The notes under the pieces were generated by a model. The model made no database searches and was not told the origin of the DNA. It saw only the letters and a program-made list of their open reading frames with translations. Both the position numbers and the translations under genes were made by a program. A stretch of 31,066 nt of DNA. It comes from a virus. The first letter of the stretch is position 1, and every line of letters begins with the position of its first letter. The DNA lies in IMG/VR virus record IMGVR_UViG_3300001097_000042, positions 1 through 31,066 of that record, one strand, 5' to 3'. Shown here piece by piece: positions 1,639 to 25,090 of the stretch.

Positions 1639-4600
1639 TACTTTTGTCCTCTAATTCTTTGTGAATCAATATACTTAATCTGACCGATTACTGCTCTAGC
1701 AATATCATTAGAACTTGCACTTGATTGTGGAACTGTAATTCCAATATTATAATTATACATGGTGCTGGAGTTATCTGATACCGTTGTTGCTACAGATGTA
1801 ATTGTTGGTGCTACAACAGATGAGTTATTAGATGAATAGACTGCTGGAGTCATATCTTTAATCATTGAAGGGAACTTAGAGTTATTCATATTTTCAAGCA
1901 TTGGACCAAACCTCTTAGTCGCAGCCTTATTCATTACAAACTCTCCAGGTGTTAGCATTGAGGGAACGCTATCAGAACCTACACGACCACCAACAGCCAT
2001 ATAGTTAGGAACCATTCCACCATAGTTCATTGGCATAATTTTTCCACCATACATTTTGCCAGTAGGTTTAGGAGGGGTTCCAGAACTTGTGTAGGAAGTG
2101 TTTACTATATTTGTAGTTGTTATAATTCTATTTACATTTTCAGTAAGCGTAATTGTTTTATTTTTTAATGCTTGCCATGAAGCAAGAATTGCCGCTGTAT
2201 TTTTAGCAGACTTGCTTGTTTCTGCTTCAATTGACTTATACTTAGACTCTACTGCAGTTAACTCTGTATTTATAACTATCCATTGATCCTTTGTTTGACC
2301 CTGATAAGTAAGGCTACTGGTGAGTGCAGTTGTTTGTTTTTCATATTGATCTCTAGCAAGGGTTGCTTTTTCAAGAAGTTGTTGTGAAGGAACTAAAGAA
2401 TCACGTTGAACCTTATCAATCTCAAATTGATAATCTCTAATTTTTTTATTAATTGGCTCACGAAGAAGTTCTTTAGCATAAACTTGATCTTGTATAGCAA
2501 GAATTTGTGCTTCAACAACTTGACGCTGTTGTTCTAGTGCAAATGTTTGTTGACCTATCTGGAACTGACGTTCTTCAATTTGAACTCTTGTCATTCCACT
2601 AACTGTTGCCGCACCAATTTCTGATTGACGAGCAGCGGCAAGTGTTCCAGAAGATCTGCGTGATGCAGCCTCAGCAGAAGTTGCTCTCATTTCTTGTGCA
2701 GCAGCGGCAGCGGCTGATATATCTCCTTGGCTTAGTGCATCAGCAAGGGTAAGTCTTTGTTTTTCTTGTGCTGCAATTTCAGAATTAAGTTGAGAAATCT
2801 TAGTAAGTGCTTCTTCTTGTGCATCAAACTTAGCATTAATTCCTTCTTCTGCTTTATCAATAAGACCAAGGGTATTAGAAAGAATTGAAGACTCATCATT
2901 TAGATTGGCAAGAGGTCTATCAAAATTAATCTCAGCACTTCTTGTTAAAATATCAACCTGTGAATTAAGATTATCAATTATACGACTTCCGTAAATAGTA
3001 TTGTATTCTAAATCATGTTGTAATTCACCAATTTTACTTTGATAATCAGATATTACTTTTTCTGCTGCATCTATTGCAGCGGTCTGTGCATCAATCTGTG
3101 TATTCAAATCCTTAAATACTGGAGATGCTTCTCTTTCTTGTTGAACAAGTGCGCCTTGTGCATCAAAATAATCTGTTGCTTGGGAAAATGATTCTTTAAA
3201 GATTGAGAACTGACCTTCCCTAGTTTGCATATTTAAATTTTGTTGCAAATCTTTTACTGCTTGAGCAGCAGTTTTAGCATTTCTTGCCATCTTTAAAAGT
3301 TCTTCAGAACTAATATCTTTTCCATTTATGGCTACAGCAAGTTCAGCATCTGCAACCATCTCAATTGCTTGTGCAGCAGAAACTCCAGCAGCCGTTAACT
3401 TTTTAAATGCCTTTCCTTGAGCCTTGGTAGTATCTATAGTTTTTGCTTGTGTTATTTGATACTCTCCAATTACCGCTTCATCAAATGCTTCTTTAAGGGC
3501 TTTACCTTGTGAAGTTAATGTAGCCTTACCATTTTTAATTGTCATGTATGTTTTGCGTGTTTTATCATCCATCTGACTAATAAAATCTAAGAACTGAGTA
3601 TTCATTGCTCCTGGGGCTTGGTTCATAAGGTTTTGCATTACCCCGCCAAACTGAGTTAAACCTTTACCTTTAGTTACCTTTAATAATTCATTTATACCGC
3701 CAGTAGCATTAATGGATGCTTTACGAACCATCTTAAGTCTATTTAAAATATCGTCAAGTGTGGTGTCTCTTGCTTTTGGGTTTTTTACTTTAGTATCTGT
3801 TGTGAATGCTGTAGATGCTGCATTAAATCCTTTTGCAATATATTCTGGAACTGATAACCCTGCAGTTTTTGCTGCTGCTATGAGTGCGGGATCTTCTTTT
3901 CCAACTAAATAATTAACAAGAAGTGTCTTACTTATTAAATCTTTTCCTTCTGAAAGTAAGGTAAAATTAAGCAATGCATCTTTAAATAATTCTGGATTTG
4001 CTCCAGCAAGTTGTTGAACTACTGTTTTATTTATTGTTTTTGGCAATGTTGCAATTTTTGACAGTGCTGAATTTGCTAGTACAAGTTGTTCTGCTCCGTT
4101 TGTTTTTAAATCTAAAGTAACTCCATACGTTGGTTGAAACTTTGCAAGAATATTTAATGCTTCTATGTCTGTTTTTAAATCAACTTTATTGGTATTGATA
4201 TATTTTAACATAATATTAATTGTATTTGCATCTGCCCCAGTTTGAAATAATAATTGAAAAACTGTAGCAGCATCGGCAAATCCTGATTTATCAACTATAA
4301 ACTTTATTTTTTGTTCAATTTCTGGATTTTTCTTAGATAAGTCTAACATCTGAATTACAGTATTAGGATCTAAATCTCCAGAAGCAAAACCAATTTGTAT
4401 AACCTTTTTAAGATCTGAATTTGCAAAATTGTTTAATTCTTGTTCAGCAATGTCTTTAAATACTTTAACTGCATCTGAAGCATTTTCATATAAACTATCA
4501 ACTGATGAGTTGATCGCTTTATTAAAGTTTTCTGGAGATATTTTACTTGAAAGAGAAATAACATCATTTAGTGTTGTTTTGTTTGCAACATTTAATTGAT

Positions 4601-9017: not shown

Positions 9018-9350
9018 TTAGTTATTTGCAAGTACTGTATTTAAAAGAGTATTTGCATCTGTTAACTTAACTCCAGAAGCGGCTTCAATAACTTTATAGA
9101 CTGTTGGAAGATCTAAGATTTCTTCCAGTTTATTAATATCTGTAGACAAGTCTGGGTTGTACTGCTCCATTGCGATCTGTACACATTCAATAAGAAGAGT
9201 CATTGACTTCTCGTTATCTTCTGCCACCCCTGCTACCTGTTCGAACTTCTTCATAAAGGGACGAAGCAAAGAGATTTTAAGGGGTCTAACCTTAATCTTT
9301 GAGCCATCCATAAGAGTTAGTTCTGTGCCCTCATGTACCGTTGTTGCCAT
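9018..9350 (-). CDS. Short tail assembly chaperone (G-like)
   Basis: A 110-residue protein between the long chaperone gene and the tape measure gene, the position of lambda gpG. It is a clear paralogue of the first 100 residues of the protein encoded at 10236-9523: both begin MATT, share PLKI, LR.FM, FE.V.G, ECV.I.M.QY.P and end the domain with PTVYKV, roughly 40% identical by eye. It lacks the C-terminal T-like domain and stops after TLLNTVLANN. Such proteins coat the tape measure and recruit tube subunits. Translation has a strong site (GGAGG, 6 nt before ATG) and its own extended -10 promoter (9378-9386). Having it as a separate gene is odd because most phages make the short form from the same gene as the long form. 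Confidence 0.85.
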   Translation of the reverse strand: MATTVHEGTELTLMDGSKIKVRPLKISLLRPFMKKFEQVAGVAEDNEKSMTLLIECVQIAMEQYNPDLSTDINKLEEILDLPTVYKVIEAASGVKLTDANTLLNTVLANN

Positions 9351-9377: not shown

Positions 9378-9386
9378 ATTATAGCA
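9378..9386 (-). promoter_or_regulatory. Extended -10 promoter of short tail chaperone gene
   Basis: TGCTATAAT on the minus strand. Predicted transcription start is about 21 nt before the ATG at 9350; the leader carries GGAGG. No convincing -35 box is present. The element lies just past the stop of the endonuclease remnant, so the short chaperone can be transcribed apart from the long one. Confidence 0.6.
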
Positions 9387-9398
9387 TAGGGGGTTTGT

Positions 9399-9527
9399 TT
9401 ATTTTAAAGATTTTTTTAGATACCATATTGCTTTTATCAAAAGGTTGGGGTCGTCATTAAAGTTTCCAAGCCCGATATTGCATTTTTGGCATAACATTCC
9501 TCTTACAATACCAGTCTCAGTGTTATT
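9399..9527 (-). pseudogene. C-terminal remnant of an endonuclease VII-like homing endonuclease
   Basis: In the spacer between the two chaperone genes the minus strand encodes, after a stop, [18 protein letters not shown] followed by [20 protein letters not shown] and a stop at 9399-9401. This matches the C-terminal half of phage recombination endonuclease VII-type HNH proteins (TG.VRG.LC..CN.GLG.F.DDP..L..A..YL). The intact family member at 23042-22446 has VRGTLCQNCN and KDNPTILRLLADYI in the same order. The catalytic His/Asp part and everything N-terminal are missing; the reading starts inside the stop region of the long chaperone gene, in another frame. An internal ATG with no ribosome site could give at most 34 residues, so I call it a remnant of a deleted mobile endonuclease gene and not an active enzyme. 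Confidence 0.8.
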
Positions 9528-10236
9528 TTTTTATTACCGACGGGTCTCTTTCATCAGAATAATCGAGACCCATATTTATACCAAATCCTAGTTTAGCCGC
9601 TTTGGGTCCTTGTAGTGATAGAACATCGTTTGAATCACCCGTCTGACCTTTACTAAATACTCTTGCTTTCATGTCTTCCCACTCTTGCTGTCCCTTGCCT
9701 TTTCCAGACTCTTTATCTAAGTCCACACCTTGGATTGCAGCCATAAACTTTTTTTCAGCATAATCTAATTCTCTGCTAACCTCTAATGTTGCCATGAGTT
9801 CTGGCATAGATAGTGATGTTTCTAATTCTTGATAATCTTTCCAAATTCCCAGCAAAAATACTTCAGACTCTAATTTTGCTAAATCAAGATCATCCCAACT
9901 AGAGCCACTTTCTACTGCCTGATTCTTGACTGGCTCTTCAGATTTTTTGTTAATCTTAATTCCAGCAGAAACATCTAAAACCTTATAAACTGTAGGCATA
10001 TCTATGCTGTCTTCTATATCTTCAACGCTGCCAGATATTGATGGATAATATTGCTTCATGCATATTCTTACACACTCTACTAGTTTTTCAATTGCTTCGT
10101 CATCATCTTTTGTACCCTTGACATTTTCAAAAGCATGCATAAACTCACGAAGATATCTAATCTTAAGAGGTGTTATTTCTAGTTCTGTTCCGTCAAATAA
10201 ATGTATTATTTCACTTTTATATATTGTAGTTGCCAT
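9523..10236 (-). CDS. Long tail assembly chaperone (GT-like, continuous reading frame)
   Basis: A 237-residue protein with two parts. Residues 1-100 are the G-like domain shared with the short chaperone at 9350-9018. A linker ([13 protein letters not shown]) leads to a T-like domain, residues about 115-237, with [20 protein letters not shown] and [11 protein letters not shown], typical of the C-terminal extension that siphoviruses normally add by a programmed frameshift. Here the two are fused in one frame. The protein should bind the tape measure through G and tube subunits through T. There is no Shine-Dalgarno site; an extended -10 element (TGGTAGAAT) ends 9 nt before the ATG, so the mRNA is leaderless or nearly so. 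The major tail gene's terminator lies immediately upstream. Confidence 0.88.
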
Positions 10237-13710: not shown

Positions 13711-14052
13711 TTATTTCCCGTAGTGTGAGGCTAATTCTTCAGGAGTTACAGTTCTAACTAACCTGTGGGTAAGCCACTTTTCCGATGCCTCCTTTGTAAC
13801 AATATTATATCCTACAGCAATTGGCTTTAGATTATCCATATGTAGGTTCTTTTGAGAGTAGATGGCTACTGTTTCTTTTGGATCTTCCTTTTTAATTTCA
13901 GGTTCAACTAATGTTGGTGGAAAGAAACTTGCAATAGTTTCTAAAATTTCAAGTTTTGTATTGGCTCCAAATAAATCAATGCCATTTTTTTTACCATAGG
14001 ATTTTAACTCCATTACAGTTTTTTTTGACAACTGCTCCATTGTTAGTTTCAT
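13711..14052 (-). CDS. Small protein with a Rho-N/SAP-like N-terminal helix pair
   Basis: A 113-residue protein, first of the connector operon. Residues 5-42 (MEQLSKKTVMELKSYGKKNG and GANTKLEILETI) have the pattern L..K.V.ELK..A...GI...G.KLEIL, typical of SAP or Rho N-terminal domains, small helical folds that bind nucleic acid or protein. The rest (LHMDNLKPIAVGYNIVTKEA then EKWLTHRLVRTVTPEELASH) has no match I know. Proteins of this kind are often found just after the major capsid gene in siphoviruses of actinobacteria, where their role is unclear. It has its own extended -10 promoter and GGAG five bases before the ATG, right after the capsid gene terminator. Confidence 0.75.
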   Translation of the reverse strand: MKLTMEQLSKKTVMELKSYGKKNGIDLFGANTKLEILETIASFFPPTLVEPEIKKEDPKETVAIYSQKNLHMDNLKPIAVGYNIVTKEASEKWLTHRLVRTVTPEELASHYGK

Positions 14053-15318: not shown

Positions 15319-16656
15319 TTAATTGAATAGGTCGGTATTCGTGAGGAAACGACCGCCCCATAGGGATTTCTGAACCTTGGTAGGCTCAAACTGCACGATC
15401 TCGCCTAGATCGCCAGACTTGCGGAAAGCGGTATCTTGCTCTACGGCATCTACTCGCTTGCCAAACTCATTAAAAACTCCCTTAACATTATTTACATCAT
15501 CAGACACGGACTTTACTTCACCTGATACTGCGTCAAGAGACTTGCTTAGTGCAACAATTTGATCATTAAGAGACTTAATAGTTGTTGCAAGATCGCCAAA
15601 GGCATTTGTAAGAGAATTTTTGATTTCAACAACTGCCTCAACAATTGCCTCATCAGACTTCGCTACAACAGTTTCTGTTGCAACAACTTCTCCCTCTTCT
15701 GATTTTTCAATAGAAGAATCTGCACTACCATCAATTGACTTTTCTGCATCTGCTGCATCTGCAACTGGTGCATTTGCGGCTGGTGCCTCATCAACGACTG
15801 CAGGAGTTTCTACAACTTCTGCTGGTTGTGCCTCTGGAGCGACCTGAACTTCTTCAACTGCAGCATCAACTGCTGTTTCTGTTGTTTCAGTCATAGGACT
15901 AACCTCCTTTGTAATCTTAATTGTACTAATGCCTTTAGCACTATCAACTAAGAACTTTATCATATTTGCTTTTTCATTATCATTCTTTTCAACAAAACCT
16001 ATGTTTTTCATTTGATTGCCCGTAGTTGGACTTTCTTTTGTCTCTTCTTCAGAGACTAAAACTATTCCAGAATCTTTGTCCCAAAATACGTTTTCTACTT
16101 GTGTGTCAATTGCTGATCCTTTAAATATGTTTATCCCGTCAACTTTTTCAACTGACATAATATTTGCAAACTGATTTGCGGGGCTATCAACTAGTGATAG
16201 TTCAATAAGGTCGTAGTTCGTGATAACTCTAATTATTTCATTGGTTTTTTCATCAAAGGCATCGTCCCACTTGTTTATTCTTCCACCAATTGAAAACCCC
16301 GTGTATGTTTTATCAAGAACCTTTTCCCAAGCATTCTGGGCACCTTTTGAAACATATGCAGATACATAAACGCCCTTGTAAAATGTTTTTGTTTCTGGAT
16401 CAAAATATTTTTCTTCTTTAAAAGATACAACTTTACCTACTGCTGATGGCTGGTGCATCTCTCTTAAATTGTTTTTAAAACCTTTGAATGCTTGCATTGA
16501 TGCTTCTGAAGTTACTATGTCCCCCTGCTTGTCAAGGTTATCCAATGAAGCAAAGCCAGATACAATTCTGCGTTCTTGATCTATTTTAGAAAAGAGCATT
16601 GACACATGAACAACGTCGTTTAGCACATTAACTTTGGCTTTATTAATTATTTCCAT
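15319..16656 (-). CDS. Prohead protease (XkdF-like) fused to a scaffold domain
   Basis: A 445-residue protein. Residues 1-170 look like the XkdF-type serine protease that matures HK97-like proheads: H68 in REMHQPSAVGKVV, S122 in YTGFSIGGRI, and the family segment IELSLVDSPAN (151-161). Residues about 250-330 are an acidic Ala/Glu/Val/Pro-rich linker, and 335-400 form a coiled coil (IKNSLTNAFGDLATTIKSLN and similar heptads), the usual make-up of a scaffold that guides shell assembly and is then digested. The C-terminus KSLWGGRFLTNTDLF may be the capsid-binding tail. Protease and scaffold in one chain is known for several siphoviruses. The ATG has AAGG 9 nt upstream and overlaps the end of the 45-residue zinc-finger ORF by 10 bases. 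Confidence 0.88.
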   Translation of the reverse strand: MEIINKAKVNVLNDVVHVSMLFSKIDQERRIVSGFASLDNLDKQGDIVTSEASMQAFKGFKNNLREMHQPSAVGKVVSFKEEKYFDPETKTFYKGVYVSAYVSKGAQNAWEKVLDKTYTGFSIGGRINKWDDAFDEKTNEIIRVITNYDLIELSLVDSPANQFANIMSVEKVDGINIFKGSAIDTQVENVFWDKDSGIVLVSEEETKESPTTGNQMKNIGFVEKNDNEKANMIKFLVDSAKGISTIKITKEVSPMTETTETAVDAAVEEVQVAPEAQPAEVVETPAVVDEAPAANAPVADAADAEKSIDGSADSSIEKSEEGEVVATETVVAKSDEAIVEAVVEIKNSLTNAFGDLATTIKSLNDQIVALSKSLDAVSGEVKSVSDDVNNVKGVFNEFGKRVDAVEQDTAFRKSGDLGEIVQFEPTKVQKSLWGGRFLTNTDLFN

Positions 16657-16784
16657 ACTCTAATGCCTTCTCTTAGGACCCTGGCATAATGCATATCACA
16701 ATACATGGTTTTTTCACCATTTCTTCGTTTTGGCTTGTAGCATTTTTCAACGTCACAGTTATTTATGTTCATAGTATTATCCAT
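16647..16784 (-). CDS. Orphan single zinc-finger micro-ORF (45 aa)
   Basis: An ORF in the portal-protease gap encoding 45 residues with a C-x4-C-x13-C-x2-H pattern (C10, C15, C29, H32; CDVEKCYKPK and MYCDMHYARVLREG). This matches a single unit of the three tandem fingers of the endonuclease at 23042-22446 (for example C51, C56, C66, H69 with SHYYRFLNTG). It ends inside the start of the protease gene (10-base overlap). Start choice is unsure: the first ATG (16784) lies within a TGGTATAAT promoter element, so a transcript from that promoter could only use the second ATG (16772), giving 41 residues. It may be a real small DNA-binding protein or the surviving N-terminal piece of a degraded homing endonuclease. 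Confidence 0.6.
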   Translation of the reverse strand: MDNTMNINNCDVEKCYKPKRRNGEKTMYCDMHYARVLREGIRVWK

Positions 16785-16791
16785 TATACCA
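16783..16791 (-). promoter_or_regulatory. Extended -10 promoter before the zinc-finger ORF
   Basis: TGGTATAAT on the minus strand, overlapping the first ATG of the zinc-finger ORF. The predicted start lies 3-4 nt before the second ATG (16772). It could also supply the protease and capsid genes downstream, which have no other visible promoter. Confidence 0.5.
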
Positions 16792-16806
16792 AACATTTTT
16801 AAGTTT

Positions 16807-22441: not shown

Positions 22442-22445
22442 GTTG

Positions 22446-23042
22446 TCATTTATTTTTATGTCTATCAATATAGTCAGCAAGGAGCCTAAGAATTGTGGGG
22501 TTATCTTTTGCTTGTCCCATAGATCTATTGCAGTTTTGGCATAAGGTTCCACGAACACATTTTCCACAAGATATTCTTTTATTGCAACATTCGTGATCGT
22601 GATCAATTGTTAGGTTTTCTAACGATCCGCACACTTCACATGGATTAGATAACATTGTTATTAATTGCTCTGATGTTAGATTATATGTTCTTTTTGTGGC
22701 ATCGTGCGTTCCGCATAGCCTAACTGCTTTGTGTTTATTTGAACAATATGGAACATCACAATCAACTTTATTATAAATTAGTTTTTTAATTGGAACCTCT
22801 GCGCTAATATTTCCAGTATTTAAAAATCTATAGTAATGGCTAGAGCAATAGTTTAAAGAATAATGTTTTTTTGTACATTTTTTAACAATACAAAACTGAG
22901 GACGTTTTTCTTGTTTTTTTGCACCAAGATCTCTTCTTTTTTTTTCTCTATAATGATTATGGCAAAGTCTTTTGGCATGAACCGTTTTATTACAATCTGC
23001 AAAGATACATAAATCATTTGAATCTTGTACATTATCAATCAT
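22446..23042 (-). CDS. Endonuclease VII-like homing endonuclease with three zinc fingers
   Basis: A 198-residue free-standing endonuclease. Three tandem C-x4-C-x9-C-x2-H units lie at C12/C17/C27/H30, C51/C56/C66/H69 and C95/C100/C110/H113; they probably bind zinc and contact DNA. The C-terminal nuclease domain is of the recombination endonuclease VII/HNH type: C135-x2-C138, the IDHDH active-site segment (146-150), VRGTLCQNCN (163-172, with C168 and C171) and KDNPTI. Such genes copy themselves into cut relatives of the phage and often sit beside conserved genes, here the reductase. There is no Shine-Dalgarno site; TGGTACAAT ends 6 nt before the ATG, implying a leaderless mRNA. Whether it cuts within the reductase gene of related phages is an inference. 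Confidence 0.9.
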   Translation of the reverse strand: MIDNVQDSNDLCIFADCNKTVHAKRLCHNHYREKKRRDLGAKKQEKRPQFCIVKKCTKKHYSLNYCSSHYYRFLNTGNISAEVPIKKLIYNKVDCDVPYCSNKHKAVRLCGTHDATKRTYNLTSEQLITMLSNPCEVCGSLENLTIDHDHECCNKRISCGKCVRGTLCQNCNRSMGQAKDNPTILRLLADYIDRHKNK

Positions 23043-23048
23043 TTGATA

Positions 23049-23057
23049 ATTGTACCA
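23049..23057 (-). promoter_or_regulatory. Extended -10 promoter of the endonuclease gene, leaderless
   Basis: TGGTACAAT on the minus strand in the 26-bp gap after the reductase gene, ending 6 nt before the ATG at 23042. Confidence 0.55.
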
Positions 23058-23058
23058 T

Positions 23059-23067
23059 ACTTTATGT
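23059..23067 (-). repeat. 9-bp repeat flanking the reductase gene, downstream copy
   Basis: ACATAAAGT on the minus strand, one base after the reductase stop codon. The same 9 bases in the same orientation occur upstream of the reductase gene at 25221-25229, so the gene lies between two direct copies. Chance is possible for an AT-rich 9-mer. Confidence 0.4.
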
Positions 23068-23068
23068 A

Positions 23069-25090
23069 TTAAATAAGACAGTTATCATTGTTGCAATATT
23101 TTTCTCCAAGGGCATCAAGATTTTCTACACCGTCATAAATAGCAGACCAGTCAATAGTTGCTATTTTGCCAATATAAGAGTTATATTCTTCTTCTGTAAT
23201 TTCTTGATAAGGTTGTTGAGGGTATACTTTGTTACCCATTGGCAAAAATGAAACTGCCTTTAGTTGACCCTCGTACATGTGAAGTGCTGGGGCAATAAAC
23301 TTTGTCTCAGTCTCTTTATCAAATGATAAAGTTACAGAAACACCATTATCTGACCAGTACTTCTGAGCAGTTGCTGCAAGACCAATCTTCTCAAACATGC
23401 TAACATCTTTTTCAGCACGAGGATGACCTGATGCTACTGGGAAATAGACTACTCGAGTATTTGCTGATACAAGGTCTTTCTCAATCTTATACCCTGCCGC
23501 TCTAAACAAATGAAGCATTGGATCAGTATTTCCAAAACGAATAGCACGAAGATAGAATGCTCCTCCAGGACCCCAGTGAACTCCAGGTGTAGCACCAGAA
23601 AGAAGTGATACAGATCCTGATGGCTTGACTGTTGTTACACGAATTGATTCACGAACACATAGCCATTCTGAATACTGCTTGTCATAACTACGAATCTTTT
23701 TGTATCCTTCATCCATCCACTCACGAGTTACTGGTAAACCATTTTGATCAGCAAATGATGCAATGCCTGTAAGTGATGTTCCGATACGGCGATTACGTTG
23801 CATAATGCCGTTTGTTTGTTGCCAGTGTGTGGGAAGAAGTGTTACAGTCTTTCCATAAAGATAAGCAAACTTCAATGTCTTGAGGAAGTCCTCCTTGGAA
23901 TCATGACGATTTAAGTGCACTTCTACAAGTGTACAAAGTTCATAACTTTCAAGACCCATCTCTGCACATGGGTTCATTCCCATCACACGATAGTCTTTTC
24001 CATCTGCTGGATCTGCAAGTCTTCCATAATTACGAGCAACATCAAGCCAAATAAAACCTGGCTCTCCATTATCTGCAATTAAATCTACATAGTCCTCATA
24101 TTTAGTTCCAACGGTTGCTGCAATAGAGTTATTACTCATCCATGCCCACCCTGGATTTTCTGAATCAAACGAGTTTCTTTCTGGAAATACTTCTGCATTT
24201 TTTAGATTAATAAAATCTTTATCTTCTGGTGTGCCAAGTGCAAGGGTAGCAGAACGACGAACATTACCAGAAACAACACATGTACCAATAAGATTTATAA
24301 TATCTGTAATAGCACGAGAGTCTAATGTTTCTCCTGCTCTGCCGCCAATTACTTTACGAAGTCTTTTATGTAATTCAATTAATGGCTTAGGTCCTGAAGC
24401 AACTCCACCAAACCCCTTAATGGGTGCTCCCAGTGGACGAATCTCAGAATAATCAAACTCTTGAATACTTTGATTTTGACGAAGGAATGAATTCAAAATC
24501 ATCCGAACTGACTCAACCCATCCTTCACGGGTATCAGGAATAACATAGGTATTTACAGGCTCTGTAGGGCTATAGATAGGCATGTCTTTATCTTGACCAA
24601 TAGTGTCGAAGCCTACTCCAATACCCAGCATAAGGGCATCCATAACCCATGCAAATAGGGTTCCTGGGTCATTGCGATCAAGGTCACGAGTAGATACCAT
24701 AGCGCAGTTTTGAAGAGCAGCAGAGTTGCGCTTCTCCATAGTCATAGATGTTCCAAATGTCCACATTCCACGACCTGGAGGTGTCCACTTTAATTCAAAC
24801 ATTCTTTGGAAGGCTTCTTGTGCAGACTTTTGAGCCTTGTTATCATTCCAAGGTAGTCTATTTTCTTTAGCATGGTTTTTTTGAACTGAGTACATACCCT
24901 CGATTACACGCTTACAAACCTCATACCATCTTTCTTTTGTTCCATCCTCTTTAACACGAGAATAGGTGCGGATAAATGTGATCTCACCTAAAGAGTTAGA
25001 TCCAGCATCTGAAAAGCCAAAAGGTGCTGGAGCCTCTTTATATTTTGCAATAAAATCATCTAGTAAACGAAAAGAAAAGACATCTGACAT
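23069..25090 (-). CDS. nrdJ: Class II adenosylcobalamin-dependent ribonucleoside triphosphate reductase
   Basis: A 673-residue monomeric reductase that converts ribonucleoside triphosphates to deoxyribonucleotides for phage DNA synthesis, using vitamin B12 coenzyme. Key residues are in place compared with the Lactobacillus leichmannii enzyme: C129 (LQNCAMVST), N373-P-C375-A-E377 (radical Cys and Glu), C386 (YELCTL), and the C-terminal pair C666/C671 in CNNDNCLI. Spacings of 11 (375/386) and 5 (666/671) equal those of C408/C419 and C731/C736 in that enzyme (739 residues). TTVKPSGSVSLLSGATPGVH is the conserved substrate-site segment. It appears intact, with no intein. The ribosome site is GAGAGG, rather far (12 nt) from the ATG. 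As a metabolic gene it is out of place among fibre and head genes, and an endonuclease gene follows directly. Confidence 0.95.
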   Translation of the reverse strand: MSDVFSFRLLDDFIAKYKEAPAPFGFSDAGSNSLGEITFIRTYSRVKEDGTKERWYEVCKRVIEGMYSVQKNHAKENRLPWNDNKAQKSAQEAFQRMFELKWTPPGRGMWTFGTSMTMEKRNSAALQNCAMVSTRDLDRNDPGTLFAWVMDALMLGIGVGFDTIGQDKDMPIYSPTEPVNTYVIPDTREGWVESVRMILNSFLRQNQSIQEFDYSEIRPLGAPIKGFGGVASGPKPLIELHKRLRKVIGGRAGETLDSRAITDIINLIGTCVVSGNVRRSATLALGTPEDKDFINLKNAEVFPERNSFDSENPGWAWMSNNSIAATVGTKYEDYVDLIADNGEPGFIWLDVARNYGRLADPADGKDYRVMGMNPCAEMGLESYELCTLVEVHLNRHDSKEDFLKTLKFAYLYGKTVTLLPTHWQQTNGIMQRNRRIGTSLTGIASFADQNGLPVTREWMDEGYKKIRSYDKQYSEWLCVRESIRVTTVKPSGSVSLLSGATPGVHWGPGGAFYLRAIRFGNTDPMLHLFRAAGYKIEKDLVSANTRVVYFPVASGHPRAEKDVSMFEKIGLAATAQKYWSDNGVSVTLSFDKETETKFIAPALHMYEGQLKAVSFLPMGNKVYPQQPYQEITEEEYNSYIGKIATIDWSAIYDGVENLDALGEKYCNNDNCLI

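Follow-up and report, generated by a model that had tools for sequence, protein, structure and literature searches.

We find that the spacer between the two tail-assembly chaperone genes in the window (the whole stretch of 31,066 nucleotides analysed, IMG/VR record IMGVR_UViG_3300001097_000042) holds the tail of an endonuclease VII (EndoVII) gene. Comparison with related phage sequences leads us to regard this spacer as probably the inactivated scar of a free-standing, homing-type endonuclease gene with the EndoVII motif (F-CphI/EndoVII-type), formed through co-conversion and an internal deletion. On the minus strand, positions 9527-9399 encode the last ~36 residues of the EndoVII domain, in a frame offset by +1 from that of the long chaperone, and recognisable EndoVII homology starts directly past the TAA of that gene. 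A sequence-only reading had described the spacer as the C-terminal half of an EndoVII-like protein in another frame with its N-terminus lost, and a translated search of 9399-9527 against phage proteins agreed with this description. The remnant (9402..9518, minus strand) matched positions 47-82 of the 82 in the Pfam profile Endonuclease_7 (PF02945) with E 8.7e-11 and 42 bits, above the curated cut-off of 23.6 bits; PHROG endonuclease VII families matched down to E 6e-12, and tblastn found matches in 813 phage records. For the first 2-3 codons of the 43 residues quoted by that reading, which overlap or abut the chaperone stop, an EndoVII origin is not clear.

Alignment with intact family members showed that the remnant has kept the Arg, the second zinc CxxC pair and the active-site Asn, and that it has lost the catalytic D-H-H, the first half of the zinc site (first CxxC), the N-terminus and everything upstream. 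A complete domain has two CxxC pairs and a D-H-x-H active site, and the remnant covers profile positions 47-82 only, which makes it a pseudogene fragment. It lacks D-H-x-H and the first CxxC and cannot act as a nuclease. The same spacer is found in a second assembly (L001, IMGVR_UViG_3300032462_000444), which has 16 mismatches to the window in 7,967 nt (99.8% identity), all outside the spacer; the remnant is thus not an assembly accident of a single record.

The nearest phage in IMG/VR, L002 (IMGVR_UViG_3300036671_000035), carries an empty allele of this boundary. By blastn, window and L002 align with 99.52% identity along the flank that reaches 9578 (5,659 nt) and with 99.41% along the flank that starts at 9388 (2,558 nt), with nothing alignable within 9389-9577 (minus strand), where 189 nt in the window replace 43 nt of L002. 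This foreign tract exceeds 9399-9527 and takes in the 3' end of the long chaperone (9523..9577, minus strand), whose last ~15 codons are recoded; L002 ends in ...GQGLDYENLT*. Because the nearest empty relatives all share the ENLT-type end, the state in the window is the derived one, and the change was a gain. On its right side the tract ends exactly at TATGCTATAAT (9378..9388, minus strand), an element resembling an extended -10 promoter that precedes the short chaperone and is conserved in the spacers of relatives; right-side co-conversion in the window is nil here. The window has 11 extended -10-like TGNTATAAT sites where 2.7 would be expected, nine of them on the coding, minus strand (30189, 29022, 28647, 26207, 22441, 16791, 14083, 11018 and 9386); several copies clearly lie in spacers preceding genes, and three are insert edges. 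A frameshifted fusion of the long chaperone with the remnant at an A7 run would be possible on paper; we rejected it, as the run is foreign-tract sequence absent from the nearest relative.

An intact endonuclease gene between the two chaperones was then sought in relatives and found in three contigs (L167, L168 and L169), where a 180-aa EndoVII gene follows a long chaperone ending in ...GLDYNDERDPNLLK and precedes the short one. Identity between its tail and the remnant is 79%. The L167 frame (2578-3120) has a complete PF02945 domain (E 1.4e-20, 73.4 bits) with D141, H142, H144, R150, N158 (the DHHRN set) and both CxxC pairs aligned, positions of which the remnant shares only the R and N of the set. 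Searching by pattern for EndoVII tails ahead of TATGCTATAAT had returned the L001 contig as its sole match, because the intact relatives carry TATGGTATAAT instead. Of the 23 nucleotide differences between remnant and intact tail, 13 are synonymous, where a sequence free of constraint would give ~21% (P 2e-4); the two therefore diverged mostly under protein selection, a signal that this comparison cannot assign to either the remnant or the intact lineage. The closest tail in the collections is only 77% identical to the remnant in nucleotides, and its exact parent is not among them. The window's own second EndoVII gene was rejected as the source, with only 12 of 23 residues identical. Elsewhere, an open frame with an apparently complete EndoVII domain, unannotated in the record, lies at 1156-1644 of L163 (Microbacterium phage RunningBrook, PQ559671.1).

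The occupied type also has an empty near relative, L264, in which the stop of the long chaperone lies inside the promoter element. The pair of L263 (intact) and L264 (empty) is 96.1% and 97.6% identical on the two flanks (about 96-98%), and its swap boundaries nearly equal those between window and L002. In these occupied and empty pairs, which are partial metagenome contigs, divergence is limited to patches adjoining the inserts, ends within ~50-650 nt and returns to background beyond. Thus an optional gene sits between conserved genes of near-identical genomes in window/L002 and in L263/L264, and a second time within window/L002, at the end of a ribonucleotide reductase gene (site B). The flanks are co-converted, as for a free-standing homing endonuclease gene.

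At site B, a second foreign tract (22443..23129, minus strand) of 687 nt in the window corresponds to 78 nt in L002. It holds an intact EndoVII frame of 198 aa (22446-23042) that is missing from L002, has a complete PF02945 domain with a longer loop (E 2.2e-14, 53.5 bits), and is accompanied by a recoded final stretch of the reductase gene; its right edge again lies at a TGCTATAAT element. The recoded end is common to the window and L359, in which positions 1-1455, compared with window 24513-23059, carry a reductase gene 99% identical to that of the window, with only ~69% identity downstream, in the next gene. These sequences point to a recent joint transfer of the reductase end and the element, up to the element. 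A separate observation concerns the intact EndoVII genes at both sites, which have TGATATACT / TGGTACAAT elements ~6-7 nt before the ATG (L167:2560-2580; window 23043-23065), positions that suggest leaderless transcripts of their own. The third difference between window and L002 (16472-16758) holds a frame of 49 aa (16647-16796), absent from L002, that lies between the portal and protease genes adjoining a promoter-like element. Its single zinc knuckle (C-x4-C...YC-x2-HY) resembles those of both intact EndoVII proteins, and beside it the 5' end of the protease gene is recoded over ~450-650 nt. A tblastn search with this frame found no homologue. Another frame, 13711-14052, matched a PHROG 'endonuclease VII' family and was considered as a third EndoVII copy; we rejected it because it resembles a SAP-type domain (a sub-threshold Pfam match).

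Ordinary recombination without an endonuclease can also yield short replaced tracts. Such a passive patch, imported from a lineage whose endonuclease had already decayed and with no homing in the event, would agree with the shortness of the tract (189 nt), its end exactly at a conserved promoter, the lack of right-hand co-conversion in the window and the lack of a known intact copy of this exact element. However, all three large differences in the ~18 kb compared between window and L002 lie at EndoVII-like or zinc-knuckle frames, which undirected recombination would not predict, and another lineage has an intact gene at the very same boundary. As an account of the whole we consider the passive patch fairly unlikely; for the last step, a patch from a scarred donor is possible.

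Decay, too, is repeated at site B. A search with both N-terminal and C-terminal peptide patterns recovered a C-terminal scar of the second element at the same place in four relatives (L357, L358, L359 and L364). These scars lack window positions 23058 to 22564, have a changed Arg and have no in-frame start near their beginning, and L364 has a further one-base frameshift. The deletion is seen there almost base by base, which backs the deletion proposed at the chaperone site. The same scars bear on whether the 32-42 residue frame of the remnant could be a functional mini-protein translated from a start of its own at 9497, for instance a dominant-negative form of the full-length endonuclease. The frame is open, its ATG stands behind AAGAGGA, and a complete CxxC and the C-terminal helix are present. 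Nevertheless, it is found only in the window and L001 and is missing from 112 distinct empty alleles, its first zinc half is gone, and the equivalent scar at site B has neither a comparable start nor the Arg and is frameshifted in L364. A conserved small protein is hence very improbable.

The homing-type insertion followed by decay would have run as follows. The original element would have been a complete gene, coding for zinc-knuckle repeats at the N-terminus and an EndoVII nuclease at the C-terminus, placed behind the long-chaperone stop and ahead of the short-chaperone promoter. It would have spread by cutting empty alleles, probably within the long chaperone's 3' end or close to it, and double-strand-break repair would have copied the gene together with a recoded chaperone end, no longer a target of the enzyme. 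Later, something like 0.5 kb (a very rough figure) would have been deleted from inside the element, between a point shortly past the chaperone stop and the catalytic loop. The start, the DNA-binding part and D-H-H would have gone with it, leaving a 36-codon tail and the short-chaperone promoter; the deletion endpoints are estimates, as the collections lack the exact parent of the remnant. The order of invasion and deletion may also have differed, as the donor may already have been deleted. EndoVII-family proteins also serve as resolvases or restriction enzymes. The earlier proposal that a homing endonuclease once sat at this boundary fits the presence and absence of the gene in near-identical phages and the recoded flanks; from these we infer homing itself.

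The sequence-only reading had further linked the endonuclease to the duplication of the chaperone or to the loss of the usual G/T frameshift, with an insertion that would break the slip arrangement. The long chaperone (9523..10236, minus strand; 237 aa) has its N-domain and C-domain fused in one frame (phrog_10504 at residues 1-102, phrog_10474 at 131-197), and the short paralogue (9018..9350, minus strand; 110 aa, phrog_10504) is 100% identical in L002. A G gene followed by a T part in the -1 frame is the textbook arrangement. The long chaperone is homologous to the split G and T of Streptomyces phages, and Stanwilliamsviridae among these have a 115-aa G gene, a T part in the -1 frame and a single N-domain copy, with no second short copy. 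This retained split arrangement, and the location of the endonuclease exactly between the two paralogues, would suit an insertion that triggered the rearrangement. The distribution argues otherwise. Among loci with both chaperones complete, the fused G/T gene and a separate short G paralogue were found in 230 of 230 (116 distinct alleles); 112 of the 116 have a 26-69 nt spacer with no trace of an endonuclease, and the only departures from this empty type are the window with L001 and the three intact contigs. Duplication and frameshift loss therefore predate the endonuclease and did not require it. In the protein tree, window and L002 group together (support 0.998), as do L167 and L264 (0.983), far apart from one another, so that each of the two lineages with an endonuclease is a lone tip surrounded by empty ones; two separate acquisitions would be the simplest account of this tree. 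The insertion also lies past the stop of the long gene, and the slip site, judged from Streptomyces phages Coruscant and MulchMansion, would be expected at residues ~95-115. We consequently regard an insertion trigger as most improbable, and neither link holds. Bacterial genomes searched for relatives of the long chaperone yielded none.

Collectively, one boundary is seen empty, occupied by a selfish gene and scarred by it, within surroundings up to 99.5% identical, and a second boundary repeats the pattern, providing a natural example of a selfish gene that invades and then decays. Two events are thereby separated: the chaperone duplication is old and general, and the endonuclease recent and local. 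The allele pairs are ready substrates for asking whether EndoVII-type phage genes home, what is cut, and whether scars protect. We also raise, as a speculation that we rate unlikely, that EndoVII elements in this phage group travel with a recoded neighbour end that makes the carrier immune. Repeated deletion of the start and catalytic loop would then leave the C-terminal tail and recoded flank behind as a scar that confers immunity, and such scars would be preserved because they prevent re-invasion and would not be neutral debris; C-terminal scars comprise two cases, too few for a rule.

The EndoVII-type homing-like element at the tail-chaperone boundary is a further case of an already known kind. 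F-CphI shows that proteins with the EndoVII motif can be homing endonucleases (PMC6083498). As in the DHHRN homing endonucleases of this type (cyanophage S-PM2 ORF177; PMC6083498), a free-standing phage endonuclease with the EndoVII catalytic motif adjoins a conserved gene, and the D, H, H, R and N positions are present in the intact relatives (L167). F-CphI differs in involving an intron and the psbA site, whereas here there is no intron and the site is a tail-chaperone boundary; moreover, the window copy is a dead tail, and the intact relatives have N-terminal zinc-knuckle repeats and predicted cleavage. Free-standing homing endonucleases cut the conserved neighbour in genomes lacking them, and the gene is then copied in by repair, along with co-converted flanks (PMC2988022). 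Intronless homing by T4 Seg and Mob likewise involves an optional endonuclease gene between conserved genes and co-conversion of the neighbour; those enzymes have GIY-YIG or HNH domains and their drive was shown genetically, whereas here it is deduced from alleles (PMC2988022). T4 gp49 endonuclease VII, a Holliday-junction resolvase, belongs to the same Pfam family (PF02945), but the genes described here are optional, mobile-looking and equipped with extra N-terminal zinc knuckles, and a resolvase role is not indicated. Finally, in the homing cycle of Goddard and Burt, reviewed in PMC1654191, a gene spreads and then decays. The coexistence of empty, degenerate and intact-occupied alleles at a single site is shared with that cycle, which concerns an intron or intein, whereas the gene here is free-standing and lies in phage spacers.
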